Part shown: piece after piece, positions 4,369 through 62,592 of the stretch
Position numbering within the stretch: the first letter of the stretch is position 1
How the letters are laid out: each line of letters opens with the position of its first letter
Assembly (NCBI GenBank): GCA_015179125.1
Contig: WHVA01000002.1
Span: 558,001 to 622,000 of the forward strand
Direction of reading: 5' to 3'
DNA length: 64,000 nucleotides
Origin: Gautieria morchelliformis
Lineage: Eukaryota > Basidiomycota > Agaricomycetes > Gomphales > Gomphaceae
Translations under genes and position numbers: made by a program
Notes under the pieces: model-generated
Seen by the model: the letters and a program-made list of their open reading frames with translations, nothing else
What the model was told of the DNA's origin: nothing
Database searches by the model: none

Positions 4369-4373
4369 AACCC
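4361..4373 (-). other. Primer-binding site of copia A (half initiator tRNA)
   Basis: The minus strand reads GGGTTATGGGCCC just inside the 5' LTR, complementary to a tRNA anticodon arm containing CAT. This fits the internal, half-tRNA priming known for copia-type elements. Copia B has the related GGTTATGGGCCC at the same place. Confidence 0.6.
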
Positions 4374-4374
4374 T

Positions 4375-13433: not shown

Positions 13434-13537
13434 CAGACCAGCCCGGCCTCCATGCCCAACCGAATCGAACTGGGCCCCATGCAGCGGTGGGGCGACACAG
13501 ATAGCAACACAGGTCCGTCCCCGTCTGCACAGAACTA

Positions 13538-16500: not shown

Positions 16501-16900
16501 AGAGTCGAGGGAAGAATCAAAGGAGGCAGATCCAGTGGACGCGTCCGACGCGAAAGTATACACGGACGGGTCAGGGTCTGACGATATCGCGGGGGCGGCG
16601 GCGGTCATGTACAGAGGAGGTAGATGCACCAAGATGTTAAGGTACCGCCTGGGCCCACTGACCGAACACACGACATATGAGGCAGAAACTGCGGGAGTGG
16701 CCCTTGCACTGGAACTCCTGTCGCGCGAAAGGGGCATTGACAAGGCCACAGTCCTGCTGGACAATCAAGCAGTGATCCAATCCCTTGGATATGTCAAGCC
16801 CCGGCCAGCCCAACAAATCCTCAGTCACATGCACCAACTAGCCAACAGAGTTGCGGCCTCGACCAGTTTGAAGTGTCGGTCCCGGAAGGCACCATATTAG
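13538..16900 (+). pseudogene. LINE ORF2: endonuclease, reverse transcriptase, RNase H
   Basis: One frame over 3.36 kb with two premature stops, TGA 14621-14623 and TAG 15773-15775. Endonuclease: QQNLNKS, LLQEPY, CGDFNCHH, and DHVPIH at the end. Reverse transcriptase: YCPIALYNTMGK, FLDIEGAFPNAV, GIGQGDPISM, and FVDDAYLYA as the catalytic DD. RNase H: VYTDGSGS, YEAETAGVALALELL, LLDNQAV. The final RNase H histidine region and the C-terminal knuckle are absent because coding similarity ends near 16870. ORF2 begins 105 bases after ORF1 ends. Confidence 0.88.
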
Positions 16901-20834: not shown

Positions 20835-23800
20835 TCAAGAGAAGTGGATATAAAAATCAAGGAGCTCTAAGTAATACATCTTTATATACATGTTGGTTGT
20901 GTCCAAACCCTCCTCAAGCAAGACCTTCACTCTGTTCCAATTGGTCCCTCTTGATACACCAACATACAACTGACCATGTCCAAACACTGCATATCTCAAG
21001 TCCAGCCCAACCGTACCCAAAGACTGTCCCTGATACTTGTTGATAGTCATTGCAAATGCCAAACGCACTGGAAACTGCCTCCTTTGCAGCACAAATGGCA
21101 ACTCTCCCTCTGATGGCTTAATGATGATCCTGGGGATGAAAGCAATATTTCCTGCACATGGACCTGAGATGATCCTGACCTCCAACACTCTAATGCTTAT
21201 CCTCACCAACCGCAACCTTGTCCCATTGCATAGTCCTTGCTTCTGATCCAAATTGTGCAACAGCATCAGAGGCACTCCAGGCTTGACTTCCAAGCGAGCA
21301 GGAGGAAGACAGCCCATCTCTATGGAATTCAGATACTCCACAGGGTACCGATCTGCATCGTCAGATTCTTCAATGGAATTTGCACAGTGCAAGACCTGAG
21401 CATCACCTGGAAACTCCCTAAACACCATGGAATTGATCTCATTGACCTCAGTGTTTCTGGCACAGAGGATGGCACGCTCCAAAAAGTAATTATCCTGGGC
21501 AGGGACTTGATTGCCAATGCCAGGGTATATTTCCTGGATCAGATCTTCAATTCCAGGGCCACACACCATGTGAGGAGGCAGTGACAACGTATGATCTAGT
21601 GGGAGATCCTTTCCCTGGCCCACATTCTGCAGGCATTCTGCAAACCTGGCTCTGTCAGGGTCATTTCTCACCCGCATGTTCTCTGTCAGATTGATGACCT
21701 TGATCTTTGGCCACAGATATGACTTCTGAAGGGTAGCTCCCACGATATCCTCCTTGGAGCCTTTAGAGACAATTGGGAGAGTCTGCTGAAAGTCACCTCC
21801 AAAGGCAACTGTGATGCCACCAAAGGGTCGGTCAGGCTGGTCAAGGAAATCCCTCAGTGTCCTGTCAATTGCCTCTATGGCATGGCGATGCTGCATTGCA
21901 GCCTCATCCCAGATGAGGAGACTGGCCTGTCTCAGCATGTCAGCCTTGTCAGAGTTCTTTGTGATGGAGGAGAGAGAGCCCTCATGGACAGGAATGGGAA
22001 TTCCAAGCATGCTATGAGAGGTTGTACCCTTAGTGGGGATAAGGGCAGCCATTGCAGATGAGGCTACTGCAATCACAATGAGGCTCTCCGCTCTACAGGA
22101 GTGGATTAGAGTGTTCCATGTGAATGATTTCCCGGCGCCACCTGAGCCAGTGACAAAAAACATTTGTCCATCAGGTTTCCCATGAGCATCTCTGGTCAGT
22201 GCCGACCGTAATATCTGATCATGTGCAGACCTTTGCCCCTCATTCAGCTTGGGAACCTCCTCATCAGCTATGTTCCTCTCTTCAACAGGGTCATGGTCCC
22301 TCTGCTCAGCTATGAACCTGTTTCCAATGAGGGCCTCCCACTTGCCTGCCACCCGAGGCATATCATCAAAGCTGCTCAAGGACATTCCACCCTGCTGGAG
22401 GATTTCTTCCAAGAGAAAGAGGCCAAAATCATAAACCTGATCGTCCTGTGGATCCTGCATACCATGTCTGATTTGGAGCTGATGTCTGAGATCATCACAT
22501 ATGTGCTCCCTGAAGCCATCCCATAGTCTGCCAGGACCCAATGGATTGCAATGGCCAAGGATGGTGGCAAAGAGATGTCTGAGCTGAGCACCTGTTTTCA
22601 TGCCACTGGCTTCCTGGAGACACAACCTCAACTCCTGATCATCATCCAGAAGTCCCCTTGCACGACAGGCCTCCTTGTAAGTACCATATTGTATGCCATC
22701 CACCGACCTAAGCTCCTCAAAGGATCTAGCCCCCTTGACCACTGTGAGGAGAGTGCACACAAAATATCTCTCTCCTGATTTAGGGTTTGCAAAGTGAAGG
22801 CGACCGATGCTATAACCTCTTTGGCGTGGTGTCCATACCTTTTCCTGTGATTGCCAGGTAAAATGCTCAGGAAACTCCACATAGAGCAGATCACGTGCTT
22901 CAGGGTAGATATCATTGGCCTCAAAGTAAGCCATGAGCGGTGTCTTTTTTGCCTCAGCCTTTTCCAGGATGTTGTCCACATCCTGGTTGGGATCAAAGAT
23001 GATTGTGTGATGGTCCTTTTCATGGACTGGCAGTGCCATGACTGCAGGCACCTGGGTGTGGATTTCCCGCTCCAGCAACCTCCAACAGGCCTCATGAGCA
23101 CTGACATGGCGAGCGTCCAGGTACTGCTTAATTTCATCCTGGGTGCGACCAAACTCCATGGTGGTCCGATCATGGTAGAGATACTTGTGGATATACTTGA
23201 TACACCTCACATTGATGGTGAGTTCAGGATTGATGTGATACCAGAATTTGAGCAAGAGCAGAGCAGAGTATGGCACAACCCATCTGTTGTCCAGCATGTC
23301 ACCTCTGACATTGTGCAGCCTTCCATCATTGCGACAACAATATTTTGGATATCCATCCTCATTCAGACTGGTTTCCTCACAGAATGGCTTTGGGAAGTTT
23401 TTCTTGCACTTGCCATTTTCCATGCAGGGTGCGTTTCGATTCATTTCTCCACAGGGACCATGTGTCATCAGCTCACAGACCAACCGGTAGAGGACAGGAT
23501 GAGTCTCTGGATCAGGGAACTCTGCTGAAATCATTGAATCCACCTCATGTGGATGTCTGATCTTGGAATCTCTTTCAAACCAGATAAGAATATGCATGTG
23601 TGGGAGTCCCCTTTTCTGGAATTCAATGGTGTGGACGCGAGCGACGGTTTCCCCAAAAATCTTTTCCTTGACGATCAAGTCAATGAGGTATTTCTTTTTG
23701 AGCTGGAACACCCGCGACACCAGGTCAGGCCTGTCCTGAGGAGATCGTCCAGGCAACAATCCATCCAATATCTCCTGCCAGTTGGGATTGGCAGTCATGG

Positions 23801-26253
23801 TAATAAAGAGATCGGCCACACCATACTTCCTTGAAATGGCCAGAGAGTTCTGCAGGTTTTCCTGCATGTCCCGTGTCCCCCCCTGAAACGTGGCAGGCAG
23901 AATGGATCTTGTGCCCAAGTTGTTTGGATCTCTGTCATTGTCATTGCGATGAAAGGCATCCATCATCTGGTTATACATCTCAGCATGGAGAGTGTGTTGA
24001 TTTGTCCTGATCCACCACAGCCTGCTTTGCTCTGCAGCGGCCCAAGAGTCTACAATGTACTGCTGGAATAATTTTCCAGCACGCAGGAGTGTTGTAGGTT
24101 CTTCTGTTCTCTGGAAGAGACGATAGGAATGGAACTGAATTTGGGTGACACGCCCAGGTCGCTCATGCCCGCCTGGTAATTGGCCATAGCGAATATCAGG
24201 TTGCCACCCCAACTCTCCCTGGGAAAGAGCAAGACATAGTGAACAGAGGCATAGTTTGGATTCATATTGGATACCCTTCAAAAGCGTCCACCTTTAAGCT
24301 GGACAATAACATCCCTAGGTTCAGGGTTGATGCCATCTCCAGGAAGAACCACCGCAATCTCATCCGCAGTAGGGATATTATACCTCCTAGGATCCCTGTG
24401 TTCCCTGTATGTGAGTCCCTGAGCTCTGAGCCTCTCAGCCGCTTGTCTATATATGGGAACATGAGGATTGCGTAGGAGGAGCATTTCCTGCAAGTCTCCC
24501 ATGATAGTTGGAGACAGACCTGGGTTACGCAAGTTCCTCTGTGCCAAAGCCAATGCTGGATCATATATATAAAGTTGGGCATACTGTATCTGCCTCCCAG
24601 GGTTAGGGATGAGAGAGCCATGAATATGATACAGTTCACCCTGCAGCTTGAGGACATATGGACCACGACTGTAAGGGCAACCCTGGCCGGTTGTGGAGAT
24701 CACACTACCACACAACTGACAAGGGGAAATCCAAAGTATGTATAATGAACAGAGTATACAAGAGAGGGGATTCTCACCTGACAAGGGGAAATCCAAAGAG
24801 AAAAGTCTAAGGACCCCCAATGTCAGCGAGCCCGTATTATACTATGCTGCGCAGCCGGGGACAACACTTGGCACCCGCCATCAGCCCTGCACCTCCCTGA
24901 TCACCCTGACCCTTGATCGACCCTTGATGCCACCTATTACGTGAGTCGCTTGATTTCCGACACTGTTCCGAGAGTGGAAGTCGGAAATTGGAGTGGAACT
25001 GGGAAGGCGAATAGAACTGGTAGAAGTTCTCCCAGAAGCGGAATCATTTCCGAAAGCGGAGGCGGAGATGGAATCGGAACCGGAAGCGGAGTCGGAAATG
25101 GAGTAGGAACTGGAAATGGAAAACAGGGTGTCCCCTGACAACGACCCTCCCGAAGCAAATCTAGATCAAAGTCGGCTCCCAAGGAAGTGAATGCAAATGC
25201 AGCATTGTACTGCCTGATGTTCTTGCGAAACTGTTTGGCCTCAGGGTCCTGGCCCTCTAAGAGCCGTCTCAATGGCTGAGGGAGCACTGGCAGCTCTGGA
25301 AGCTGCACCTTTCCTTCTAAACAGCAATCACCAAATCTGGGCCGCCGATTTGAGGATCTCAGCAGGTGTTCTGCCATCCAGTGTAATGCTCCACAGTCAG
25401 GGCAGGGAACAACCATGGGACCCAGATCATGATGCAGCACATCTGCCTCGATTATTCTAGAGCGACCGAGTGGAATAAAAGGAGGAAGTCGCTGAGGACG
25501 CTGCCGAGGTACAGGGTGTGGCTGAGGAGGCTGAGGAGGTGCAGGGAGTGGCAGAAGTGGCTGTGGAGGTGCAGGGAGTGGCAGAAGAGGCCATGGAGGT
25601 GCAGGGAGTGGCTGAGGAGGCTGAGGAGGTGCAGGGAGTCGCTGAAGAGGCTGAGGAGGTGCAGGGAGTTGCTGAAGAGGCCGCAGAAGTGCAGGGAGTA
25701 GCTGAGGCATTGGCCTTATTGCATTGGCCTGAGCCTGCAATGCTGCCACTCCTGCAGAACCTACTACAGGAGGATTAGCTGACTGTCTACCTCTTCCCAA
25801 TTGCTGCAATATAGCACACTGCTCAGCAGACTGCTCAGCAGCCTGAGCACGCAACTGTGCAATTCCTGCAGAACCAACCACAGGAAGATTGGGAGGTGGC
25901 TGTATAGGCTCCTGCCTGTATCTTCTCATGGGCTGTGCTGCTGGGATTGCTGCTAACTGAGCACGAAGGGCTGCCACCTGCTGTCCAGGACTGGGATTGG
26001 GAGGATGTGACGGCCCTGCAGCAGGTTGTTGAAAAGGATCAGCCGCATTGCTTCTAGGAGGAGGGTGAGGGATGGCAAAAGGAGGTGGTGGAGGGGGTGG
26101 CTGGTTCCGAGCTCTGGCAGCAGCCACAGCAAGGGCACGTGCTCTCCGATCAGTAGGTGACGTCATATGACCCTCCTGCTCCTCCCTCGCCCTTTCACGC
26201 TCCTGCTGATGATTTCTCTCTGGAGTAGAAGGATCCCTGAGAAATGCAGGCAT
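20835..26253 (-). pseudogene. Helitron Rep-helicase, broken copy
   Basis: Three minus-strand pieces match the 1664-residue intact protein: 24937-26253 (proline-rich N part and zinc-finger-like region), 24278-24820, and 20835-24281 (Rep and PIF1 helicase). A one-base loss near 24219 shifts the frame relative to the intact copy. Two codons for KG are missing from the tyrosine motif (YIHKYLYHDRTT instead of ...YKGHDRTT, near 23176), and an 11-codon segment near 24417 is absent. The helicase motifs GSGGAGKS, WDEAAM, GGDFQQTLP and VSRGTNW are kept. The solo LTR at 24670-25140 splits the gene. Clearly inactive. Confidence 0.88.
24670..25140. repeat. Solo LTR, 471 bp, inside the Helitron
   Basis: Begins TGTAAGGG, ends CCCTGACA, and is flanked by the target duplication ACGAC (24665-24669 and 25141-25145). 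The uninterrupted site is seen in the intact Helitron near 61440. Related LTRs in inverse orientation are at 33018-33125 and 33235-33693. A GGAA/TTCC-rich imperfect repeat fills 24960-25120. Confidence 0.88.
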
Positions 26254-27087
26254 AAGCTTAGAGGAACAATCAAGCTACCCCACTTCAACTTACATTTGCA
26301 AGCAGATGCTGTTGTTGTTAATTTTTCTTGGGCAAAGTCAGGGGAATTTATTAATTTCTAATTAAATCAATGTCAGACAGCTCACACCAGACCACAGAGA
26401 AATACATACATACCAAGGAAGGGACAGGGAGTCTGTTTGTTAGGCAAAGTCAAGGGAATTTATTAATTTCTATTTTTTTAAAAAAAGAAAATGTCAGATG
26501 GCTCACACCAGACCACAGAGAAATATATGTACCAAGGAAGGGATGGGGAATTTTTTTGATGAAAATATCCAAGTCTTCTTCAGCTATCCAACTGGAATAA
26601 TTCCAGTAAAAGGTCCTGGTCCTGGTCCTGGGGAGATGTCTTCTTCAGCCACCAGTAGTGCAAGTCAACACTAAGAGAACTGCAATGCAATTGTGGCTCC
26701 CTCTAAGGCAGCCTGGGATGACTACCTGGCTCCTTAGCAGAGAAAAAGCTGCCCCACTGAAGAGGTCAACCCCAATAGTTCACTGCAGGGATCTCCCTGG
26801 GAAGAGATATTTTGTGTTCTACACTATATAGGCTATCTATTGTTTCACTCTCACACAAATTTATTCTATCTAGTGGGCAGAGAGGAGAGGAGGGTGGTGG
26901 TGGAGTGCCCAGACGTGGCTGCGCAGCGTTCTGCCAGCGCAGCGCTGCTTTGAGCGCCTGAGCCGGCACAGCGGCGTGAACCGCTGATAGGGACAGGGGC
27001 TCGCGGCTGCGCCGCTCGCGCGCGCTCCGCTGACAAACTAATGACCAAGCATTGGTCAGCATTGGTCAGCGCGCCCACATCCTCCCA

Positions 27088-29691: not shown

Positions 29692-30727
29692 CACTGGAGG
29701 CATGGCAAAATTTCTCAAGTCAGGAAACCCCCTGAGAAATTCTATGGAAATTCCACGTTTCTTGAGAGTTTCCTAGGATGGGAAATTTAGAGGAAATTTA
29801 ATGTTTTACAGGGGTTTCCAAAGTTCAGGAAATTGTATAAAATTTGTAAAAATATGGTCCAGGAAATCGTGAGGAAACTGAGTCCAGAAACTGACAGTTT
29901 AACCATGATTTCCTGTCTAAAGAAATCGTGAGTAAATTCTAAATTTCCTCAGAGTTTTTTGGTACAGGAAAATATTAGGAAATTCTGCAAATCTTGGCAG
30001 GAAATCTTGTGAAAATTTTATATTTCTCTATTCCTGACTCTGGAAATTATAGTAAATATTCAGTTTCTAGGAGGAGGAAATTCACAATATCTCAAAGATT
30101 TCCTGAGGATTTCCTGGGTTGGGGAATTGTCTAGAAATTGGAATAGTGCGTTGGGGAGTTTTTCCCTTTCGCGTGGGCGCGGGATAATATTTGTGCAAAC
30201 CGACCGCTATAAGCGCCGGGTACCAGCGACTGCGTGCCCTGGCAGCGCCGGTACCAGCGCATGGTCAACACACTATTCCAATTTCTAGACAATTCCCCAA
30301 CCCAGGAAATCCTCAGGAAATCTTTGAGATATTGTGAATTTCCTCCTAGAAACTGAATATTTACTATAATTTCCAGAGTCAGGAAATCATAGGGAAATAT
30401 AAAATTTTCACAAGATTTCTTGCCAAGATTTGCAGAATTTCCTAATATTTTCCTGTACCAAAAAACTCTGAGGAAATTTAGAATTTACTCATGATTTCTT
30501 TAGACAGGAAATCATGGTTAAACTGTCAGTTTCTGGACTCAGTTTCCTCACGATTTCCTGGACCATATTTTTACAAATTTTATACAATTTCCTGAACTTT
30601 GGAAACCCTTGTAAAACATTAAATTTCCTCTAAATTTCCCATCCTAGGAAACTCTCAAGAAACGTGGAATTTCCATAGAATTTTCAAGGGGTTTCCTGGC
30701 TTGAGAAATTTTGCCATGCCTCCAGTG
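29692..30727. mobile_element. Fold-back element with 457-bp inverted arms
   Basis: Arms 29692-30148 and 30271-30727 are near-perfect inverted copies of equal length, ending CACTGGAGGCATGGC outward. The 122-bp centre is GC-rich and contains GGTACCAGCG-type repeats. No protein is encoded. Arms are AT-rich with repeated TTTCCTGA/TCAGGAAA motifs. A related half copy lies at 47306-48122. No target duplication could be settled, so the superfamily is open. Confidence 0.85.
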
Positions 30728-38296: not shown

Positions 38297-38984
38297 TCTG
38301 GGTACACGTTGCAAGACCTGACGGTGAGCCATGATATATATCTCGTTTCCCGGCTTCTTTGAGGAACCCCTGACAGGTGGCGGCTGGTGGCTATGCGCTG
38401 GTGGTCGGATGGCCCTCAGCCAGACAATGCCATCAGGTGATGCTCGTCATACTTACGGGCCAAGTCATCGGCGTACTCTCCGAGTCGGCATCTCGCTGGC
38501 CCGACTTCTAGCCAGGCTCCTGGGTCAGCCAGCCGTTGTAGAGTGTGTTGATATCCAAATTGGGCCAAATGTGATGCCAGCTGTCAGACCTGTCAGTTAT
38601 GGACTTTGATTAGGGGGTTAGATCGACCCCCTGACTAGATTCAGAGGTCTGGGCGCCTGCTAGCTCCCGCCGGCTCGCTGTTCCGAAGCATTTAGGAAAA
38701 GGAATTTAGGATTTTAGGTCATCCAGTGATGTACATCGGGAACTAAGCATAACGAATCCATATGTCGCCATGCCATTCATAACTCTTCTGGCCAAGCAGG
38801 ATAGATTACGTAAGGTGACCCAATATACGAACGTCGAGAGCACTTAGTAGTCATAAGATTAGACAGATAGAACATAACAGATACTTGAAAATACACCTAT
38901 AAGCAGGGGCCAATGTGGACTAATCTCGGGTCTGTAGTCAACCTCGCTAGGGTATCGAAATCACCGCGTTTTAGGGGTTTCTAC

Positions 38985-40727
38985 TAGGGCTCGGCGCCGT
39001 ACCGTATACGTGTACGGCCGTACATTGTACGGCGACATTACGGCCCCATCCGTACCGTATGTTGGGCTGCTGGAACCCCGAGAGTACGGATGCAGTCATA
39101 CGGCCGTATACGGCCGTCGTACGGACATACGGGGTTTCCAAGGTACTTAGGTGTATTTACAGACCTAGTAGTCACTCGTCAAATACTTCAACTCTCCCCG
39201 CAGCCAACCGCAAGTTCTGCTCGACCATTATGACTCGGTATGTATTGTTTCTGCTTCAAACTCATGATATCGTATCCCAAATACTCAGCAAGCCATCTGG
39301 TCGAATGGTAACGTCAATACAACCCACACGGCGAGAATGGGATTTCACACGCACTGCGGCATGTTGCTTGTGCCTGCTGAATATCTTGGAGGAAAACGCC
39401 AGGTCCCCTGCGCCTAACTTCGATATTTTGAACTAGGACAACATTTCTCACTTATCTGACGGCAGGTCCGTCACTCAGCACGTTGACTTGACAGTGTCAA
39501 TTACCCCCGGACACAGCCATACGCCGCAAGCCGTTGTTGCCACTATCCTAGGTATCGAAGCGACTGCGTTCAGAGTGCATCCCGCATTTGTTTCGAGAAT
39601 ATCATCATACGCTTCGCAAGCCAGGAAATTTGATTCACAAGAAATTTAGGTCCTTTAGCAAGTATGTATCTGTTAGCCATCCATGCATCTGACTGAGGGC
39701 CTTACAGAGTACTGGGAATCGAGGATGTTTGCGTATATCCTCGTGAGATAGATCATCAAGTTCTGGCAGCAAAGGAACTGTGGGAAGCCTTTCCTGACAT
39801 GACCTCCGTCACAAAATGTATCTATAAGCGAGCCGCAGGTCCGGACAAGACATTTGTCGAAGCGTTGACTACGATCCCTTTACTTACATCATTTGAACTG
39901 GTGGACACGATTTTTCAAAGAACCCAGAACCCAGAATTTAATCGGATCACTGGCCTTACTCGAGTGGCATTCCGCTTCAGCGATTATTGGCTTAATCACA
40001 CCCCAAAGGCTCGCTGGGATCTTGTTGTGGTCCAGCGTGAGGCATACTACCTCTTGGTATTATTGTCTGGCTCGGCGCCGACGTTGGAATATGTCGAGAT
40101 ACCTGGAGAAATCGCCTGCCCAGAGGAAATGTCAAAGCGTTATTGGCCTCGTCTATGACATCTTGTTCTGCACGGCGTGGTCCCAGATAGGCCATTAATC
40201 CCTCTACTTCGTCAGGCGCCATCGTTATGCATACCAATAGAGATCAACGCGTACGGCACCGTTGATAGTCACGCTCATGGCTCTCTGTCCACCCTCTCCG
40301 GCCCCTGCCAATATCTCGCCAGAGCGTCCGTGCCGGGGGCGCCCGTGGGGAGGAGCACCATGAGGAGCGTGTCCGTGCGGCACGTGCAGAGGTACTCGAG
40401 GAGAGGGTGCAAGCGGCGGACGGTGGGAGGTGCGCGCGGTAGATGGCCAAGTGTGTGGTTGGAAGTATTTAGTAGCATGGACTTGGTGTACAGGTATTTA
40501 TGCAGTATTAGGCAATGTTTGAGGGATAGTTACCTTACATAACTGCGTCACCCGTACACTGCGTATATACGGCCGTATACGGCCGTATGTCGTACGGCCT
40601 CGTACGGTGGTCATACGTGCCGTAACCGTAATACGGTCAGAACAGGCAAGTTGAACTTCGGTACGGGTACGGGTCCGTAATACGGCAGCCGTATATACGG
40701 CTCATACGGGGACGGTGCCGAGCCCTA
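38985..40727. mobile_element. hAT-type non-autonomous element with captured gene
   Basis: Flanked by a perfect 8-bp duplication GTTTCTAC (38977-38984 and 40728-40735). Terminal inverted repeats TAGGGCTCGGCGCCGT and, inverted on the right, TAGGGCTCGGCACCGT fit the hAT consensus YARNG. Dense subterminal TACGGCCGTA-type motifs occupy 39000-39130 and 40560-40715. No hAT transposase is encoded; the interior instead carries an intron-bearing host-gene fragment. This is the structure of a gene-capturing (Pack-type) element. Confidence 0.88.
39610..40542 (+). pseudogene. Captured LRR/F-box-like gene fragment
   Basis: Plus-strand coding inside the hAT element. An exon ending KKFRSFSK is joined across a 46-bp GT-AG intron (39662-39707) to VLGIEDVCVYPREID and a frame through 40158. 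Leucine-rich-repeat-like stretches are TIPLLTSFELVDTIF, APTLEYVEIPG and, after an in-frame TGA at 40156-40158, HLVLHGVVPDRPLIPLLRQA. The same frame then stays open to 40542. The pattern is like the LRR part of mushroom F-box proteins. Keeping an intron shows capture at the DNA level. The upstream part (39160-39610) is not resolved, so start is approximate. Confidence 0.5.
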
Positions 40728-40735
40728 GTTTCTAC

Positions 40736-42213
40736 TTGTAGTTCGAATGGTTCAGATCGGCGGCAAATGGCCGCAGAAAGACCCTGCCGCCGGAAGTTTG
40801 TCATGGACCGGTCCGTGGACACACCCATGGACCCACTAACCCTATGACGCCCTCAAATTACCATAGTACCCACTAGGAATGGTCGCCCACAGCACCCACA
40901 ATGATTATGTGATGTGGTATTTCCTAATATAGTATAACTAGTAATTACCCGTCTCTTAAGCAAACGACGCCAATTCATATGGCGTTCTTTGGCGTCCTTG
41001 TTTGGCTGTATTTCCGTTGCTTTGTCTTCCCGGAGCCGTCTCTGACGACCCGGCTTCTCATTTTAACTCATCTACTTATCCCTAAGGACACCTCGAGATG
41101 AAATGTTTGAAATCACACGCCTTGTTCCCTGGAGGTTGGCAAGTGCTGTTCCCGATGAGCACGCTACAAGAACTACCTACACTCGCAGCAGATAACCCGC
41201 CATCCTCACCACCAGCTCTGATGATGCCCCTCAACTATCTTTTAAGTACATTGCGCAGGACAACACACAACCAGATGCCTTGGAGGCAATGCTGCCAACC
41301 AATGACACCCTTCTGAATGATGTCCTGAGGAACAAACTCATGGCAGTGAACGCACAGTCCATCGCATCTGTCCTTTCACTTTCTCATCACATGACATCTG
41401 TCCTGGAGAATATCTCCAGCCCTCACCCCGCATCCAGACCATTCCAACATGCCTTTTCAGGACCCGTGGCCAGCTCAGCCAGTCAACGCACTGGCCCAGG
41501 TATGAGGCCTCTTGTGCACGCGAGATGCGCCAATTGAGGAAAAGTGCAAAGAGAACGCTGAGATGGCTAGAAGCAACTGGGAAGAAGAGGAACACGAGTG
41601 TGAAGGTCTCAGGCTACGCCTGCGGGACAAAGGAGAAGGAGAACCGGGTCGGCGGTATAGATGCACATGTCAAGGGTGAGTGCAATACCTCATTCCCTGT
41701 CAAAGACACGTCTATTTACACATGTCTGGCGCTTACCCTGTCCAGATCATCATACCAGGGGCTCGCTCTCAGCCTTGCTCACCCGCACTCTATCAGACCC
41801 TATCCCCTCACTTCTTGTGGTGCCCGAGCAGCCAGAACACCAGCTATCTTACTCGCAGCCGAGTGACTATGCCCCATACTCCCCACATTGACCTCCCTCT
41901 AAGCAACACCACATGCTTTCCACTGTATCACATGTTGTTGGGAAGGAGTCTCTTCACATGCATACAGGTTTAGACAGTATAGAGACGTGTACAAGTGGAG
42001 GAAGTGTCAAGAGGCATCATGTGCGTGTCAGGCTGGAGACCCATGGCCTCTGATTACTAGTAGTAGTAGAAAAACACAAGTGGCGCTACTGGGCATATGC
42101 AGGTTGATGCTGCTGTTATACCTTGTGTCCTGGCAAAGGACATACAGTTGTTTTCTGCAAGTGCTAGTGATCCACTGCGCCATGCCGAATTACAGCAAGA
42201 CTGTACTGCATTT
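40736..42213. other. Mostly unassigned, with one gene-like stretch
   Basis: No mobile-element ends recognised. The gene-like part at 41098-41866 is described separately. The rest (40736-41097, 41867-42213) shows only short frames. Confidence 0.35.
41098..41866 (+). CDS. Possible spliced gene, unrecognised
   Basis: An open stretch ending LEAMLPTNDTLLNDVLRNKL and SLSHHMTSVLENIS near 41400 is followed by a frame rich in charged residues (EEKCKENAEMARSNWEEEEH, about 41535-41600) that looks like a coiled coil. A proline-rich region follows (about 41770-41860). Exons are not defined and no family is recognised. Confidence 0.25.
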
Positions 42214-42450: not shown

Positions 42451-45400
42451 TTATGTTTTGTGGGACCTTTCCTGTAACCAGAAGAAGCTAGGGTCGAGGT
42501 GTTTCATATGGCCATGGCGCTCCAGATTTTTCGCTACGGATAGGGCAGACTGGTTGTCTATGTAGAGGCAGGATGGCTTCTCGATCTTCGAGTCGAGTTC
42601 GTTGAACAAGTTCTGTAACCACATAATTTCAGTTCCGGCTAGGGTTGCCGCTACAAACTCTGCTTCCGTTGTGGAGAGAGTGACGATGTTTTGTAGTTTG
42701 CTGGCCCAACTGATAGCTCCTGTCCTGATTTTTGTGAGGAATCCGGAGGTCGACCTGCCATTATCTAGGTTCCCCCTGTGATCGGCATCTGTCCACGTTT
42801 GGAACGTCTCGGTCGAGTCGCTGGCAGTGAAGGTGAGTGCTAGATCCATGGTTCCTCTCAAGTAATGCAGCAGGTGCTTCACAGCCACCCAATGGGCAGG
42901 ACCAGGGTTCGAGTTGAAATGGGTGAGACACCCGACAGCGTATGCAATGTCGGGGCAAGTCGCTATAGCAAGATAATTCAGTGCACCGACTGCATTTAGG
43001 CACAGTGTGTTCTGCATTTCTTCAACTTCTTCTGGGGTCGACGGACCCATCGCTGAGCTCAAGTTCAGGCCGGGAGCCATGGGTGTCAAAACTGGGCGAC
43101 ACTCCATATGTGAAATCGGTTTAAGATGTCTTGTATGTATTGCTTTTGCGATAGTTTCAGTGTCCTTTTTGAGCGGTTGTAGTTTACTTCCACTCCCAAT
43201 AGTGATGTCGTTTCTCCTAGGTCTTTCAATTTGAATATCTTAGTGAGTTCATTCTTTACTCGGTCGAGATCCTGCTTGGAGTTCGATACTAGGGTTAGCT
43301 CATCAACAAAAACAGGGATGATGATTTTTGTGGTACCACTCGCCCAAATGTAAACGCTCAGGTCGGATCGGAGACGTTTAAAGCTTATGCTTTCTAGTGC
43401 AGCTCCAAGCCGCTCGTACCACAGTCTTCCACTTTGCTTGAGGCCATAGATTCCTCTTTTCAGTTTGCATACCCAGTTTGCACCTCCTTGGCGATATCCC
43501 TCCGGCTGATCCATGTATATGTTGGCATCATCGCCTAGTACTCCGTTAAGACAGGCATTTGAGATATCTACTGACCCGATGTGCGCTCCTTGAAGTGCTC
43601 CTTGTGCCAATATGGTACGCAAGGCGGCCCATCTCGCTGTGGGAGCAAAAACTTCATTGTAGTCACTGCCTGGCCGTTGGGTATACCCCTTTGCCACTAG
43701 ATGGCTCTTGTACTTGTCCAGGGATCCATCCGAGTGGAGCTTAATTCGGAACACATCTCGATCCAATGGCCTTTTCTCCTGGTGTTAGTTTTACCAGTTC
43801 CCATGTCCCATTGTTTAGAAGTGCTTGACTTTCAGTGTCTGTCAATTTTTTTCATAGTTGGCTATCAGATTGTCGCATTGCTTCTGCGAAAGTTCTTGGG
43901 ACTCTGTCATCCTTGATGGTTGCATTTAGAGCTATCTCAATGGTACCTGATGATGACATGTTCCCACTGACAGCAATTGGTTCATCGTGGACGAATTCCA
44001 GGGCTTCGATGATGAACGTGATTATTGCTGCGCCCCCATCAGGGTCCGAATTGTGGTCTGGTGGTGGGAGTGGCCTGAGAAATGGGTCGTGAAGCTGGTG
44101 GTAGTCAACTCGAGCTGTATTCCTGCTCGAACGGTGGGGCTCATCAATGGGCAAGTGTGGTAGATTGGGGATTGGTGGGATGGGGAGGTTTTCGTGTCAT
44201 TGAGGGGTTCAGGATCAGGGTTTGGATCCTGTGATTCTTGTGCGATGTCTGGAAGGGCAGTGACTTCTCTTGGGAGTGGAGATGCGGGTAGGAGCAATTC
44301 TTGGTTAGTGGAGCTCAAGGTGGATGGTCCTGGGAGTTCGGATGTGTTGAATATGACATCCCGAGAGATGATAGTGCATTTCGTGACTGGGTAAAGGCAG
44401 CGCCAGCCCTTGTACCCGGTTCCGAAACCAAGGTAGATACACTTTCGGGTTCTTGATTGCAATCCGGTCCAGTCTTCTTTCTGCATGTGGATGTAGGCTG
44501 TGCGTCCAAAGGTTCGAAGCATTCCTAGATCCTGTTTTTGGCCATGCCAAGCTTGGTACGGTGTCATGTTTGGGAGTGCAGAGGTTGGGGTGGCATTGAT
44601 GATGCGTACTAGCAGTTTTAGGGCATCCCCCCACATCATTGCTGGCAGGTGAGCTTATTGTAGTAATGCAATTGTACCTTCAATGAGAGTATGGTTCATG
44701 CGCTCTGAGATCCCGTTTTGTTGTGGTGTACCTTTTGTAGTATGGTCATAGATGATACCTCGATGTTTGAAGTGCTCATCCCATTTCTTGCCTATGTACT
44801 CTCCGCCTTTGTCGTCTCTGTCTGAATTTTCTCACTCTTGTGCCCATTTAGTTTTCAGCAAAGGCTTCGTAGGTGCAGTATGCATCGAAAGCTTCGTCTT
44901 TCGTTCTCAGGAGATACACACATCTGTATCTCGTGTGGTCATCCATGAACGTTATCCAGTATTGATGCCCGGTCGCTGAGCAAACTGGTAGTGGTCCGTG
45001 TACGTCTGATACAACAAGATCAAGTGGCTTTGAGGCGCAGCTATCGGTCCTTTTTGGAAAAGGATCGCAGTGTTGTTTCGCAGTGATGCATGGTTCACAG
45101 ATAGCTGGCATAGTTTCCTTTGATTTTATTTGAATTCCACGGGCCATGTTGTTCTCTAACAGCTTATCCAGATGCGCCAATCCAATGTGTGCGAGGTGTT
45201 GGTGCCAAAAGGAGCGATCTTCTAGAGGCAATGAGGCAATAAAGGTCTGTTCTGGGTCGGGTACAGTGTTCCCAATCAGGAAACCCATACCATTCTGTAC
45301 CGTGGCATAGAAGTGCAGGTTCCCATCTTGGAAGAACGAGATGCAGTCTCTCACAATACTGACTTTGAACTCATGGTGTGTGGTGAGATGTAGGACAGCG

Positions 45401-45516
45401 AGCAGGTTGTTTTGGAGAGCCAGTACATGTAAGACTTTCAAGAAAATAATGCTTTTCACTGTTCTTCCATCTATAATCGGTGCAAATAGGACCCATCCCT
45501 TCCCCACTGAGTACAC
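42451..45516 (-). pseudogene. Copia B Pol remnants (fossil)
   Basis: Several minus-strand stretches carry, in element order, GAG-pre-integrase and integrase (HLAHIGLAHLDKLL, CEPCITAKQ, SDVHGPLPVC near 45516-44848), the integrase C part (44639-44022), reverse transcriptase (GSVDISNACLNGVL, KRGIYGLKQSGRLWYERL, FVDELTLVS) and RNase H (TDADHRGNLDNGRSTSGFL, STTEAEFVAATL). The order proves Ty1/copia. Broken in several places. Confidence 0.88.
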
Positions 45517-46125
45517 TATCTTGTTCGTTGCTAGTCGAATAGGTACGCGGTATGGTTCGTAGTCTCAAAGCCAATGACAGTGTGGCATCATATGGCAGGT
45601 GGTGCCGGCATCTGTATTCCAATGTAGATCAGCATTACTGCTGGTAGATGATGAGTGGAGGGGTCATACACTTGCGTTTCCAGCAAGCTCTTGCAGTACT
45701 GGATCGGGCACACTTTCTTTTGCTTGGTTTGCGCTTCGGCCATCCTGTCTCTGTCATGCAGGTCGAAGCTCTGGATGCACGATCCAGCATTGGTCTGCAG
45801 AGTGGCCTCGCTTCCTGCATGCTGTGCATGTTGGAATGGTGGTCTTCTTTTCTCTGGCTATGGTGAGCGCTGCTCCCGATGATGCTAGGTTTGCTTGGTG
45901 CTTCATGTCTTCATTCCGGAAGGCAGTGGAGATGGTGGTGCGATCAAGCATGCCGATCAGGAGTAGGGATGAGGGTGCCATATTCAATTTGGTCGAGTCC
46001 TGCGATGGCTGCATGAATTCCTATTTCATCGACAATGCTCTGGATGGTGAGAGCACTGGGTGCTAGAGCTATGAGATTGTTTGTGGCGGTGTTTATATGG
46101 GTGATGTAGTCTGTAAGGGACTCAG

Positions 46126-50438: not shown

Positions 50439-50681
50439 CTTAGACTTGAGGCATGAAGACAGACATGTGGATATATGGTGAGCCTCAGAGCTTTTGGCAC
50501 AACCATGTATACTTATACGCATTGAGGTTGCACAGCACTCACAGGGAGTATTAGTATACTCTACTCATGCAATTAGTGTCAGTTTTGCTCATTTACAGCC
50601 GTTTGCAGTCAAGTCTGGACTCCGACGTGCGTCGTGCTTTTTCAGCCATTTTGTAGCTACGGACACCCCCTGATTTTTCCA

Positions 50682-50986
50682 TTACAACTAGACCTTGTCT
50701 TAGCTAGCTTCCTTAATCAAAACCTCTAAGAAAGTCACCATCCACACTCTCACAAAGAGCTTTTAGCTTGGGATGCCGTCATTTGTCAGGTGCCGCAACC
50801 AGGCCTCTTCCAGCCCTTGGGTGATTTTTCCGAAGCTCCTACGCAATTTCATCACACCGGGCCTTTTAGAAACTGGAGTGCTGGTCCTGACTGAGGTTAT
50901 CACGAAGAGTTTTTGGCATTATCTCATTTCTGGTGAGTGGAGCCGTGGTTTCGTGGTTGGGGCGTCAACTCAATGTTTTTTCTCTT
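50682..50986 (+). repeat. Triplicated segment, copy A
   Basis: About 305 bases starting TTACAACTAGACCTTG. The plus strand has an open but unrecognised stretch (NQASSSPWVIFPKLLRNFI). Copy B follows directly in tandem; copy C is inverted at 51768-52101. Similarity between A and C also extends left of A to about 50591. Confidence 0.8.
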
Positions 50987-51285
50987 ACAACTAGGCCTTG
51001 TCTTAACTAGCTTCCTTAATCAAAACCTCTAAGAAAGTCATCATCCACACTCCCACGAAGAGCTTTTAGCTCGGGAAGTCATCGTTCGTCCGGTGCTGCA
51101 ACCAGGCCTCTTCCAGCCCTTGGGGGGGCTTTCTGAAGCTCCTACGCAATTTCATCACACCGGGCCTCTTAGAAACAGGAGATCTGGTCCTGGCTGAGGT
51201 TATCACGAACAATTTTGGCATTATCTCATATCTGGTGAGTGGAAAGGTTGTTTCAGGCTTGGCCCAGTGTTAGCTCAACATTCTC
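50987..51285 (+). repeat. Triplicated segment, copy B
   Basis: Tandem copy of A, about 90% alike by eye, starting TTACAACTAGGCCTTG. Confidence 0.8.
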
Positions 51286-51767
51286 TAAGTGTTCCCATGC
51301 TTTGCGGTGTTCGATTCTGGATTGAGGAGGTGCAGGGCTGGTTCAGTCACAGTGGATAGTAGGTATAGGACTGTATCTACTGAATTTCTAACATGGATGC
51401 AGGCTTTGGCTCATGTTTTCGGTGCTTGGCACGGCGTTTCTTGCTGGCCTCATACTTTAGCTACTTCTTTGCTTCAAATGACCTGCTTCCTTCGACATGG
51501 CCTAGGCAATATGCAAGCATCTTAGGGACAATGAGTCCATCTGCAAGCTGTGAGATCCTAAATAGCCTTGTCCTCGGAGCGGCAGGGTACGTGGCATGAA
51601 GACATGGCCATCAATACTGAATGGACCCTGCTCCAGTTCAGCCAACCATTCTTCAACAGGGGGAGAGAGTGTGGGATCCTCATATAAAATAGAGCAAAAC
51701 TAGACTCAATTTACTCCCCTGAGACGCCTGAGAACCACTCAGGAGGACCTTCCCATGCTCCTGCAAC

Positions 51768-52101
51768 ATGATAATGCCAAAAACTCTTCGTGATAATCTC
51801 AGTCAGGACCGGCACTCCAGTTTCTAAAAGGCCCAGTGTGATGAAATTGCATAGGAGCTTTGGAAAAATCACCCAAGGGCTGGAAGAGGCCTGGTTGCAG
51901 CACCTGACGAACGATGGCATCCCAAGCTAAAAGCTCTTCGTGAGAGTGTGGATGATGACTTTCTTAGAGGTTTTGATTAAGGAAGCCAGCTAAGACAAGG
52001 TCTAGTTGTAATGGAAAAATCAGGGGGTGTCCATAGCTACAAAACGGCTGAAAAAGCACGACGTGCGTTGGAGTCCAGACTTGACTGCAAACGGCTGTAA
52101 T
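51768..52101 (-). repeat. Triplicated segment, copy C (inverted)
   Basis: Reverse complement of 50591-50932. Copies A and C make a 1.5 kb structure with about 335-bp inverted arms; copy B and an unassigned stretch (51286-51767) lie between. It may be a non-autonomous element with long inverted ends; no target duplication was settled. Confidence 0.75.
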
Positions 52102-57597: not shown

Positions 57598-60500
57598 TCA
57601 AGGAGCTCTAAGTAATACATCTTTATATACAATGTTGGTTGTGTCCAAACCCTCCTCAAGCAAGACCTTCACTCTGTTCCAATTGGTCCCTCTTGATACA
57701 CCAACATACAACTGACCATGTCCAAACACTGGATATCTCAGGTCCAGCCCAACCGTACCCAAAGACTGTCCTTGAGACTTGTTGATAGTCATTGCAAATG
57801 CCAAACGCACTGGAAACTGCCTCCTTTGCAGCACAAATGGCAACTCTCCCTCTGATGGCTTAATGATGATCCTGGGGATGAAAGCAATATTGCCTGCACA
57901 TGGACCTGAGATGATCCTGACCTCCAACACTCTAATGCTTATCCTCACCAACCGCAACCTTGTCCCATTGCATAGTCCTTGCTTCTGATCCAAATTGCGC
58001 AACAGCATCAGAGGCACTCCAGGCTTGACTTCCAAGCGAGCAGGAGGAAGACAGCCCATCTCTATGGAATTCAGATACTCCACAGGATACCGATCTGCAT
58101 CATCGGATTCTTCAATGGAATTTGCGCAGTGCAAGACCTGAGCATCACCTGGAAACTCCCTAAACACCATGGAATTGATCTCATTGACCTCAGTGTTTCT
58201 GGCACAGAGGATGGCACGCTCCAAAAAGTAATTGTCCTGGGCAGGGACATGATTGCCAATGCCAGGGTATATTTCCTGGATCAGATCTTCAATTCCAGGG
58301 CCACAAACCATGTGAGGAGGCAGTGAGAACGTATGATCTAGTGGGAGATCCTTTCCCTGGCCCACATTCTGCAGCCATTCTGCAAACCTGGCTCTGTCAG
58401 GGTCATTTCTCACCCGCATGTTCTCTGTCAGATGGAGGACATTGATCTTTGGCCACAGATATGACTTCTGAAGGGTAGCTCCCACGATATCCTCCTTGGA
58501 GCCTTTAGGGACAATTGGGAGAGTCTGCTGAAAGTCACCTCCAAAGGCGACTGTGATGCCACCAAAGGGTCTGTCAGGCTGGTCAAGGAAATCCCTCAGT
58601 GTCCTGTCAATGGCCTCTATGGCATGGCGATGCTGCATTGCAGCCTCATCCCAGATGAGGAGACTGGCCTGTCTCAGCATGTCAGCCTTGTCAGAGTTCT
58701 TTTTGATGGAGGAGAAAGAGCGCTCATGGACAGGAATGGGAATTCCAAGCATGCTATGAGAGGTTGTACCCTTAGTGAGGATAAGTGCAGCCATTGCAGA
58801 TGAGGCTACTGCAATCACAATGAGGCTCTCCGCTCTACAGGAGTGGATTAGAGTGTTCCATGTGAATGATTTCCCGGCGCCACCTGAGCCAGTGACAAAA
58901 AACATTTGTCCATCAGGTTTCCCATGAGCATCTCTGGTCAGTGCCGACCGTAATATCTGATCATGCGTGGACCTTTGCCCCTCATTCAGCCTGGGAACCT
59001 CCTCATCAGCTATGTTCCTCTCTTCAACACGGTCATAGTCCCTCTGCTCAGCTATGAACCTGTTTCCAATGAGGGCCTCCCACTCGCCTGCCACCCGAGG
59101 CATATCATCAAAGCTGCTCAAGGACATTCCACCCTGCTGGAGGATTTTTTCCAAGAGAAAGAGGCCAAAATCATAAACCTGATCGTCCTGTGGATCCTGC
59201 ATAGCATGTCTGATTTGGAGCTGATGTCTGAGATCATCACATATGTGCTCCCTGAAGCCATCCCATAGTCTGCCGGGGCCCGATGGATTGCAATGGCCAA
59301 GGATGGTGGCAAAGAGATGTCTGAGCTGAGCACCTGTTTTCATGCCACTGGCTTCCTGGAGACACAACCTCAACTCCTGATCATCATCCAGAAGTCCCCT
59401 TGCACGACAGGCCTCCTTGTAAGTAGCATATGGTATGCCATCCACCGACCTAAGCTCCTCAAAGGATCTAGCCCCCTTGACCACTGTGAGGAGAGTGCGC
59501 ACAAAAAATCTCTCTCCTGATCTAGGGTTTGCAAAGTGAAGGCGACCGATGCTATAACCTCCTTGGCGTGGTGTCCATACCTTTTCCTGTGAGTGCCAGG
59601 TAAAATGCTCAGGAAACTCCACATAGAGCAGATCACGTGCTTCAGGGTAGATATCATTGGCCTCAAAGTAAGCCATGAGCGGTGTCTTTTTCGCCTCAGC
59701 CCTTTCCAGGATGTTGTCCACATCCTGGTCGGGATCAAAGATGATTGTGTGATGGTCCTTTTCATGGACTGGCAGTGCCATGACTGCAGGCACCTGGGTG
59801 TGGATTTCCCGCTCCAGCAACCTCCAACAGGCCTCATGAGCACTGACATAGCGAGCGTCCAGGTACTGCTTAATTTCATCCTGGGTGCGACCAAACTCCA
59901 TGGTGGTCCGATCATGGCCCTTGTAGAGATACTTGTGGATATACTTGATACACCTCACATTGATGGTGAGTTCAGGGTTGATGTGACACCAGAATTTGAG
60001 CAAGAGCAGAGCAGAGTATGGCACAACCCATCTGTTGTCCAGCATGTGACCTCTGACATTGTGCAGCCTTCCATCATTGCGACGACGATATTTTGGATAT
60101 CCATCCTCATTCAGACTGGTTTCCTCACAGAATGGCTTTGGGAAGTTTTTCTTGCACTTGCCATTTTCCATGCAGGGTGCGTTTGGTTTCATTTGTCCAC
60201 AGGGACCATGTGTCATCAGCTCACAGACCAACCGGTAGAGGACAGGATGAGTCTCTGGATCAGGGAACTCTGCCGAAATCATTGAATCCACCTCATGTGG
60301 ATGTCTGATCTTGGAATCTCTTTCAAACCAGATAAGAATATGCATGTGTGGGAGTCCCCTTTTCTGGAATTCAATGGTGTGGACGCGAGCGACGGTTTCC
60401 CCAAAAATCTTTTCCTTGACGATCAAGTCAATGAGGTATTTCTTTTTGAGCTGGAACACCCGCGACACCAGGTCAGGCCTGTCCTGAGGAGTTTGTCCAG

Positions 60501-62592
60501 GCAACAACGCATCCAATACCTCCTGCCAGTTGGGATTGGCAGTCATGGTAATAAAGAGATCAGCCACACCATACTTCCTTGAAATGGCCAGAGAGTTCTG
60601 CAGGTTTTGCTGCATGTCCCGTGTCCCCCCCTGAAATGTGGCAGGCAGAATGGATCTTGCGCCCAAGTTGTTTGGATCTCTGTCATTGTCATTGCGATGA
60701 AAGGCATCCATCATCTGGTTATACATCTCAGCACGGAGAGTGTGTTGGTTTGTCCTGATCCACCACAGCCTGCTTTGCTCTGCAGCGGCCCAAGAGTCTA
60801 CAATGTACTGCTGGAATAATTTGCCAGCGCGCAGGAGTGTTGTAGGTTCTTCTGTTCTCTGGAAGAGACGATAGGAATGGAACTGAATTTGGGTGACATG
60901 CCCACTTCGCTCACGCCCGTCTGGTAATTGGCGATAGCGAATACCAGGTTGCCACCCCAACTCTCCCCTGGGAAAGAGCAAGACATAGTGAAGAGAGGCA
61001 TAGTTTGGATTCATATCGGATACCCTTTGAAAGCGTCCACCTTTGAGCTGGACAATAACATCCCTAGGTTCAGGGTTGATGCCATCTCCAGGAAGAACCA
61101 CCGCAATCTCATCCGCAGTAGGGATATTATACCTCCTAGGATCCCTGTGTTCCCTGTATGTGAGCCTAGCCCGGATCTCACCATTCTGTCCCTGAGCTCT
61201 GAGCCTCTCAGCCGCTTGTCTATATATGGGAACATGAGGATTGCATAAGAGGAGCATTTCCTGCAAGTCTCCCATGATAGTTGGAGACAGACCTGGGTTA
61301 CGCGTGTTCCTCTGTTCCAAAGCCAATGCTGGATCATATATATAAAGTTGGGCATACTGTATCCGCCTCCCAGGGTTAGGGATGAGAGAGCCATGAATAT
61401 GATACAGTTCGCCCTGCAGCTTGAGGACATATGGACCACGACCCTCCCGAAGCAAATCTAGGTCAAAGTCGGCTCCCAAGGAAGTGAATGCAAATGCAGC
61501 ATTGTACTGCCTGATGTTCTGGCGAAACTGTTTGGCCTCAGGGTCCTGGCCCTCTAAGAGCCGTCTCAATGGCTGAGGGAGCACTGGCAGCTCTGGAAGC
61601 TGCACCTTTCCTTGTATACAGCAATCACCAAACCTGGGCCGCACATTTGAGGATTTCTGCAGGCGTTCTGCCATCCAGTGCAATGCTTTACAGTCAGGGC
61701 AGGAAATAACCATGGGACCCAAATCATGACGCTGCACATCTGCCTCGATTATTCTAGAGCGACCAAGTGGAATAGGAGGAGGAGGTTGCTGAGGACGCTG
61801 CCGAGGTGCAGGGAGTGGCTGAGGAGGCTGAGGAGGTGCAGGGAGTGGCAGAAGATGCTGAGGAGGTGCAGGGAGTGGCAGAAGACGCTGTGGAGGTGCA
61901 GGGAGTGGCTGAGGTGGCTGAGGAGGTGCAGGGAGTTGCTGAGGAGGCTGAGGAGGTGCAGGGAGTCGCTGAAGAGGCTGCAGAAGCGCAGGGAGTAGCC
62001 GAGGCATTGGTCTTATTGCATTGGCCTGAGCCGGCAATGCTGCCACTCCTGCAGAACCTACTACAGAAGGATTAGCTGCCTGTCTACCTCTTCCCAATTG
62101 CTGCAATATAGCAGACTGCTCAGCAGCCTGAGCACGCAACTGTGCAATTCCTGCAGAACCAACCACAGGAAGATTGGGAGGTGGCCGTATAGGCTCCTGC
62201 CTGTATCTTCTCACAGGCTGTGCTGCTGGGATTGCTGCTAACTGAGCACGCAGGGCTGCCACCTGCTGTCCAGGACTGGGATCCGGAGGACGTGACGGCC
62301 CTGCAGGCATAGGAGGACGTGGTGGCCCTGCAAGGATAGGAGGACGTGATGGCCCAGCCACAGGTTGTTGAAAAGGATCAGCGACATTGCTTCTAGGAGG
62401 AGGGCGAGGGATGGCAAAAGGCTGTGGTGGAGGGGGAGGCTGGTCCTGAGCTCTGACAGCAGCAGCAGCAAGTGCACGCGCTCTCCGATCAGTGGGCGAC
62501 GTCATATGACCCTCTTGCTCCTCCCTTGCCCTTTCACGCTCCTGCTGACGATTTCTCTCTGGAGTAGAAGGATCCCTGAGAAATGTAGGCAT
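57598..62592 (-). CDS. Helitron Rep-helicase, 1664 residues, intact
   Basis: Nicks, strand-transfers and unwinds Helitron DNA. Domains: a proline-rich low-complexity N part (residues 50-280, LPAPPQ repeats about 210-260); a zinc-finger-like region with CPDCKALHW at 298-306 and CC at 324-325; Helitron_like_N/Rep region about 560-900 with FITMTANPNW (680-689), the metal-binding HMH at 749-751, and the two-tyrosine motif KYIHKYLYKG (Tyr884, Tyr888). The PIF1-family helicase spans about 1200-1640: Walker A GSGGAGKS 1235-1242, Walker B WDEA 1314-1317, GGDFQQTLP 1351-1359, INKSQGQS about 1603-1610, and VSRGTNW about 1632-1638. Every catalytic motif is present and no stop interrupts it. The start is the first ATG, supported by the matching start of the decayed copy at 26253. 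Confidence 0.93.
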   Translation of the reverse strand: MPTFLRDPSTPERNRQQERERAREEQEGHMTSPTDRRARALAAAAVRAQDQPPPPPQPFAIPRPPPRSNVADPFQQPVAGPSRPPILAGPPRPPMPAGPSRPPDPSPGQQVAALRAQLAAIPAAQPVRRYRQEPIRPPPNLPVVGSAGIAQLRAQAAEQSAILQQLGRGRQAANPSVVGSAGVAALPAQANAIRPMPRLLPALLQPLQRLPAPPQPPQQLPAPPQPPQPLPAPPQRLLPLPAPPQHLLPLPAPPQPPQPLPAPRQRPQQPPPPIPLGRSRIIEADVQRHDLGPMVISCPDCKALHWMAERLQKSSNVRPRFGDCCIQGKVQLPELPVLPQPLRRLLEGQDPEAKQFRQNIRQYNAAFAFTSLGADFDLDLLREGRGPYVLKLQGELYHIHGSLIPNPGRRIQYAQLYIYDPALALEQRNTRNPGLSPTIMGDLQEMLLLCNPHVPIYRQAAERLRAQGQNGEIRARLTYREHRDPRRYNIPTADEIAVVLPGDGINPEPRDVIVQLKGGRFQRVSDMNPNYASLHYVLLFPRGELGWQPGIRYRQLPDGRERSGHVTQIQFHSYRLFQRTEEPTTLLRAGKLFQQYIVDSWAAAEQSRLWWIRTNQHTLRAEMYNQMMDAFHRNDNDRDPNNLGARSILPATFQGGTRDMQQNLQNSLAISRKYGVADLFITMTANPNWQEVLDALLPGQTPQDRPDLVSRVFQLKKKYLIDLIVKEKIFGETVARVHTIEFQKRGLPHMHILIWFERDSKIRHPHEVDSMISAEFPDPETHPVLYRLVCELMTHGPCGQMKPNAPCMENGKCKKNFPKPFCEETSLNEDGYPKYRRRNDGRLHNVRGHMLDNRWVVPYSALLLLKFWCHINPELTINVRCIKYIHKYLYKGHDRTTMEFGRTQDEIKQYLDARYVSAHEACWRLLEREIHTQVPAVMALPVHEKDHHTIIFDPDQDVDNILERAEAKKTPLMAYFEANDIYPEARDLLYVEFPEHFTWHSQEKVWTPRQGGYSIGRLHFANPRSGERFFVRTLLTVVKGARSFEELRSVDGIPYATYKEACRARGLLDDDQELRLCLQEASGMKTGAQLRHLFATILGHCNPSGPGRLWDGFREHICDDLRHQLQIRHAMQDPQDDQVYDFGLFLLEKILQQGGMSLSSFDDMPRVAGEWEALIGNRFIAEQRDYDRVEERNIADEEVPRLNEGQRSTHDQILRSALTRDAHGKPDGQMFFVTGSGGAGKSFTWNTLIHSCRAESLIVIAVASSAMAALILTKGTTSHSMLGIPIPVHERSFSSIKKNSDKADMLRQASLLIWDEAAMQHRHAIEAIDRTLRDFLDQPDRPFGGITVAFGGDFQQTLPIVPKGSKEDIVGATLQKSYLWPKINVLHLTENMRVRNDPDRARFAEWLQNVGQGKDLPLDHTFSLPPHMVCGPGIEDLIQEIYPGIGNHVPAQDNYFLERAILCARNTEVNEINSMVFREFPGDAQVLHCANSIEESDDADRYPVEYLNSIEMGCLPPARLEVKPGVPLMLLRNLDQKQGLCNGTRLRLVRISIRVLEVRIISGPCAGNIAFIPRIIIKPSEGELPFVLQRRQFPVRLAFAMTINKSQGQSLGTVGLDLRYPVFGHGQLYVGVSRGTNWNRVKVLLEEGLDTTNIVYKDVLLRAP

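Follow-up and report, generated by a model that had tools for sequence, protein, structure and literature searches.

Several pieces of host DNA captured by a Pack-type hAT family in a fungal genome

The unit at 38985-40727 of the 64,000-nucleotide stretch of Gautieria morchelliformis DNA analyzed here (the window) is 1743 bp long and is bounded by inverted ends and a target duplication. With a probability of roughly 0.93, we read it as a non-autonomous, Pack-type hAT element that captured a piece of a host gene by break repair and then spread. Together with its relatives it forms a hAT family of the Pack type, in which more than one capture has taken place. Counts from our genome DNA searches are lower bounds throughout.

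The element, its ends, and its insertion site

The features of the element and its borders are listed below by window position, with the strand in brackets where one applies.

38977-38984: left target site duplication (TSD), GTTTCTAC, read from the sequence
38985-39000 (+): left terminal inverted repeat (TIR), TAGGGCTCGGCGCCGT, matching the right end at 15/16 positions
38985-39134 (+): 5' subterminal region with fourteen TACGG/CCGTA motifs, homologous to the ends of ~4-kb hAT copies
39286-39505 (+): left portion of an acquired segment older than the capture, resembling the C337 repeats (72-80%)
39506-40233 (+): captured host gene stretch (~728 bp), LRR-like by eye, 92-94% to C210, C630, and C190
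39549-39551 (+): TAG stop in the captured frame, where the aligned donors have TTG
39662-39707 (+): retained 46-bp intron, GTATGT...TTACAG, also present in the donors
40156-40158 (+): TGA stop in the captured frame, where the donors have CGA; common to the C151, C870, and C471 copies
40233-40316 (+): right portion of this older segment, again C337-like (73-85%)
40319-40727 (+): 3' family region, in part common to the DUF2235-carrying sisters
40525-40727 (-): 3' subterminal region with seventeen TACGG/CCGTA motifs
40712-40727 (-): right TIR, TAGGGCTCGGCACCGT, with one mismatch
40728-40735: right TSD, GTTTCTAC, identical to the left copy

The ends of hAT elements carry a YARNG motif, which is matched by the TAGGG that starts both ends of this element. 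A preliminary description of the same DNA had already pointed to the exact 8-bp duplication, the 16-bp inverted ends with a single mismatch, and a dense set of motifs at both ends, and all three hold. The first 150 bp of the element contain TACGG/CCGTA at 93 per kb and the last 203 bp at 84 per kb; the density is 0.7 per kb between the ends and 1.2 per kb across the window. All four TACGGCCGTA decamers in the window lie within the element ends. On sequence grounds, the 5' subterminal region (38985-39134) is probably a transposase binding region. A DNA-strand fold of the element's 5' end gave a z of -1.99, and six of 200 shuffles were equally low.

We scanned the window for exact 8-bp repeats with 16-bp inverted ends (up to two mismatches, span 0.3-5 kb). 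Three pairs were found, the element among them, and none in any of thirty dinucleotide shuffles. The other two pairs sit in long foldbacks. The one at 29692-30727 is near-perfect and ~1 kb long, with nested arms of 306 (97%), 82 (99%), 45 (100%), and 47 nt (94%) around a short center, and either a foldback transposon or a palindromic duplication may account for it. The inverted repeat at 50593-52100 has 348-nt arms (93%) that lie 812 nt apart and encloses a shorter 16-bp inverted pair flanked by ACGTGCGT; this is possibly another TIR element. Across the genome, a 19-base pattern for the element's ends, TAGGGCTYGGCGCCGTACC, occurs at least nineteen times versus zero for the reversed control, and at least forty matches were obtained with each end of the element (its first 201 bases and its last 228).

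Assignment to hAT, proposed earlier from the duplication and the YARNG-type ends, gains further support from relatives of ~4 kb. The C1003 copy encodes a hAT dimerization domain (PF05699, E 4e-10) and has at least three near-complete relatives (C612, C686, C526; 94-95%), along with broken ones in C915, C912, and C174. A genome profile search also placed PF05699 in C612, C686, C912, and C915. The ends of C612, C1003, and C526 are the same as those of the element (0-3 mismatches), with 7/8 duplications. Among PDB sequences, Hermes was matched at E 0.058 only. Target duplications of hAT elements have the consensus nTnnnnAn, to which those of this family seem to be a poor fit (T at position 2 in 6/15, A at position 7 in 7/15).

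Three 4-kb relatives were inspected, and what each has in common with the element is the terminal ~150 bp plus a weak 76% match to element bases 194-280. As the preliminary description had it, no transposase was recognized inside the 1743-bp element, whether by comparison with these three relatives or by Pfam searches of two interior ORFs. With only 78-82% identity between its termini and those of the 4-kb copies, the element may have a closer autonomous parent that went unseen. Because none of the three inspected copies holds a single uninterrupted transposase frame (a count in which introns and decay are not separated), we infer mobilization in trans from the ends: the transposase of the ~4-kb family would recognize the 16-bp ends that it has in common with the element.

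To look at the insertion site, we joined the window flanks and searched them against their own genome. Eleven of the forty-one listed matches span the junction (query 158-163 to 222-226) at 92-97%. The five of these related empty sites that were inspected all run through TTAGGGGTTTCTAC and on into TTGTAGTTCGAATG without the element; the GTTTCTAC target is single in four of them and has one mismatch in the fifth, C176. Since the empty sites run through the junction in this way, the element landed in a dispersed repeat. The forty-one listed matches included no allelic empty site, only the eleven repeat-borne ones in its place. The dispersed repeat around the element (window 38960-40920) begins TCACCGCG after variable flanks at five loci, and Helitrons likewise begin with TC. 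The right flank from ~40774 is another repeat, present at more than twelve loci. By eye, the long ORFs at 269-4383, 12099-16900, 20835-26274, 42451-45564, and 57598-62613 resemble two Helitron-type proteins (one open over 1671 codons) as well as Copia pol/gag and a non-LTR retrotransposon. Because these resemble transposon proteins, we regard the window as a transposon-rich island.

The captured gene piece, its donors, and its joints

The preliminary description had seen a host-like coding stretch with a 46-bp intron inside the element and suggested a search of the same genome for its donor. That search found three matching host loci, C210, C630, and C190, which are alike (~90% mutual identity) over ~2.3-2.5 kb, far past the captured part. 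No family TIR was found at any of them (TAG-anchored, up to four mismatches, 3.7-kb loci). Exon 2 is an open frame of 483 codons in C210 and 505 codons in C630, and the frame of C190 is split by a frameshift. The alignment to the donors covers 39526/39533-40233, and the first 20-27 bp of the captured stretch were assigned by eye from the junctions. Nine bp found in the three donors are absent from the three element copies aligned with them.

Because the 46-bp intron is common to the donors and the element, the source was DNA. The intron is also collinear with that of the donors, and the earlier proposal of a DNA-level capture stands. Where at least one stop had been reported, two lie in the donor frame, the TAG at 39549-39551 and the TGA at 40156-40158. 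The naming of the gene as F-box/LRR found no support: at E up to 1, Pfam returned no F-box or LRR family for two donor exon-2 ORFs or for one donor's exon 1, which gave a single unrelated sub-threshold match. The LRR-like look of the donor is a leucine pattern recognized by eye. A search of PDB sequences with a donor ORF gave six weak matches to short peptides, at E 0.39 or worse. An AlphaFold model of 39697-40155 was set aside (mean pLDDT 43).

The LRR-like piece sits inside another, older acquired segment, which the preliminary description had not noticed. The counterparts of 39286-39505 and 40233-40316 adjoin each other in the C337 repeats. At the capture point between them, ~6-7 bp of the target are gone and there is no duplication; CCC is common to target and donor at the left joint and ~1 bp at the right (all by eye). 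Because of this small loss, the short common bases, and the missing duplication, the joints fit break repair by copying, unlike transposition, and they suggest break repair as the route of capture. A sister in C426, ~80% alike, continues ~18 bp through the insertion point and then diverges, and no TIR was recognized in it. This early divergence and the lack of a recognized TIR make C426 alone a weak witness of the pre-capture state. The C337 sequence itself is a repeat of ~3 kb that recurs several times on its 708-kb contig (L037, L040). At L037 it has an F-box match (PF12937, E 1.4e-8), as well as a WD40-like stretch that is weak and below threshold, and both lie outside the segment in common with the element.

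In the history that we propose, a C337-like segment was already in place in a progenitor when a break occurred within that segment. Repair would have copied in ~728 bp of genomic DNA, comprising the end of exon 1, the 46-bp intron, and the start of exon 2, with the copied piece replacing ~6-7 bp and leaving no target duplication. The product would then have transposed to at least ten places. Elsewhere in the family, further host sequences were captured, among them parts of a DUF2235 gene as two pieces of which one is inverted.

Copies of the capture and sisters with other interiors

We identified at least ten copies with the captured stretch in the 122-Mb genome: the window element (C226) and those in C151, C870, C186, C834, C471, C304, C227, C919, and C781. 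TSDs are readable at both ends in eight of the ten; seven are exact, that of C186 matches at 7/8, and all differ from one another. Within the loci inspected, C227 and C919 have one recognizable end only. The C870 copy bears a ~720-bp insertion near its end, and the C781 copy has grown to 7.6 kb with further inserts, where a Copia-like ORF was noted by eye. A ~600-bp insertion interrupts the captured stretch of C781, which was excluded from the tree and from the dN/dS estimates. In the tree (708 columns), a branch with supports of 99/98 parts the nine remaining element copies from the three donors. Because the nine copies group apart in this way, a single capture followed by spread is indicated. 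Distances are 1.4-5.7% between elements, 5.3-8.3% between elements and donors, and 5.6-6.3% between donors.

Four further elements of 1330-1354 bp have the same ends as the window element, with TSDs matching at 8/8 (C197), 7/8 (C217), 8/8 (C625), and 8/8 (C447). None carries the LRR-like piece, and their interior matches DUF2235 genes (PF09994). Of the query, bases 1-514 align in the sense orientation and bases 521-667 align inverted, ~2 kb downstream. By our own count, this arrangement is present in whole or in part at no fewer than twelve places, and C348, C291, C36, and C406 hold partial copies of the interior. In a base-by-base alignment to C670, the first piece is 90% identical and the second 81-82%. 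One ORF of L080 scored 25.2 bits against PF09994 (E 1.2e-5), where the cut-off is 27; the C291 sister gave a direct match above the cut-off, and the donor places coincide with PF09994 profile matches across the genome. DUF2235 genes form a sizeable family here, with several on contig C670 (L090, C670:293900-296900).

A third interior, at C781:29548-30744, combines two pieces, one resembling C604/C335 (79-83%) and the other C274/C406 (91%). Its TSD is weak, matching at only 6/8. Part of this interior, together with the family 3' end, is matched by C151:203713-204214. Two ORFs from its donors gave a single Pfam match at E 0.22, which we took as chance. Candidate captures behind the 5' ends of C193, C282, C775, C781:395692, and C36 were also considered and none was counted; three of these five, judged by eye, carry ORFs resembling gag, polymerase, or helicase and are nested transposons.

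The search for siblings that the preliminary description had recommended thus recovered the same ends around differing interiors: the LRR-like piece, the DUF2235 pieces, the third two-source interior, and that of the autonomous-type hAT. We lean, by a narrow balance, toward a broader reading in which host DNA has been picked up repeatedly by break repair inside existing elements, building and spreading serial chimeras whose joints show the mechanism directly. This reading counts at least three interior lineages and five kinds of source locus.

Alternative readings and known systems

Many transposons carry extra ORFs, and the interior stretch is common to at least ten copies, so that it might be the ordinary sequence of a decayed autonomous hAT, its LRR likeness being a coincidence or the mark of a passenger ORF. 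We give this reading almost no credence. The 4-kb hATs share little with the element beyond the ends, and siblings with those ends have other interiors, the DUF2235 sisters lacking the LRR-like piece. The piece also matches host loci without the ends that remain alike far past the captured part. The outcomes that the preliminary description had named as fatal to capture are therefore absent: the interior is not in every copy, holds no recognizable transposase, and matches host genes. In a further model, put forward for plant Pack-TYPE elements of several superfamilies (PMC8903248), two neighboring insertions fuse with a host gene piece between them and are then mobilized together; we consider it unlikely here. 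No internal TIR remnant was found in the element (TAG- or CTA-anchored, up to four mismatches), the piece is embedded in a different acquired segment, where ~6-7 bp were deleted and the joints have 1-3 common bases (by eye), and the DUF2235 pieces are in opposite orientation to each other. Capture of a processed transcript (a retrocopy) has a precedent in a fungal hAT, where it was proposed for histone H3 of Pseudocercospora fijiensis (PMC6710886). For the LRR-like piece it is refuted by the retained intron, which is collinear with that of the donors, and we regard it as barely tenable.

The captured stretch might instead be functional, for example by regulating the donor gene through antisense or small RNAs, or by forming part of a chimeric protein. 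In its favor, the matched exon-2 stretch is stop-free in three of the ten copies (C834, C227, C304), and dN/dS between elements and donors is below 1 (0.42, n=27), though that figure includes the donors' own history. Against it, the ratio between elements is 0.78 (n=36), and the TGA occurs in four copies, so a stop-bearing copy kept spreading. Function is in our view quite improbable. For the exon-2 part, dN/dS among donor pairs is 0.35 (n=3), and the donor gene appears constrained and the element copies largely unconstrained. C>T and G>A together make up 124 of 302 changes in the nine elements (inflated by common ancestry) and eighteen of sixty-four in the donors. We read the captured stretches as decaying fragments, probably carried as cargo.

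A gene-capturing hAT family such as this is of a kind already known: Pack-hAT elements are described in maize (PMC8903248), and histone H3 in ascomycete hATs. Plant Pack-TYPE elements (PMC8903248) are likewise non-autonomous TIR elements with host gene pieces inside and, for hAT, an 8-bp TSD. Unlike them, the present family lies in a fungal-looking genome and has a capture within an earlier capture, an inverted second piece in a sister, and no sign of fused neighboring insertions. A tandem-insertion model is given for plant Pack-CACTA in a review (PMC13317346).

In the fungal papers compared, hAT capture is described only for histone H3. The hAT of Pyrenophora tritici-repentis (PMC3538342) similarly holds a host-type gene between fungal hAT ends, a transduplication of an H3-like gene in twenty-six copies with one non-autonomous form; a Tc1/mariner element there also carries an ORF. 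In that species the H3-like gene is complete and sits next to hAT transposase sequence, and 24/26 are not frameshifted, whereas here there are gene fragments from several donors, with the intron kept and no transposase found. Histone H3 capture by a hAT in Pseudocercospora fijiensis and five relatives (PMC6710886) resembles the present case in its 8-bp TSD and in a captured gene that was amplified while the original was retained elsewhere. There the H3 is intronless and read as a transcript or retrocopy, in RIP-inactivated elements of ~9.5 kb with a hAT domain, unlike the DNA-level capture in small elements here. The gene-capturing Helitrons of Pleurotus ostreatus (PMC4289320) are also fungal DNA transposons; they are rolling-circle elements, in contrast to the TIRs and 8-bp TSD found here. 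In the open-licence literature, searched by titles and abstract starts, we found no report of several host genes captured by one fungal hAT, an absence that is not proof.

What sets this family apart is its small size, the lack of a recognizable transposase, DNA-level capture from several donors, and a serial capture that can be read. Most documented cases of gene capture by TIR transposons come from plants, fungi being little described in this respect, and the mechanism is debated. Here, a single genome contains the donors together with several interiors, one capture that was amplified, and a site that is likely in its pre-capture state, so that neither the succession of events nor the joints need be assumed. 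The family also carries a warning for such genomes, where annotation may call transposon-borne fragments genes.
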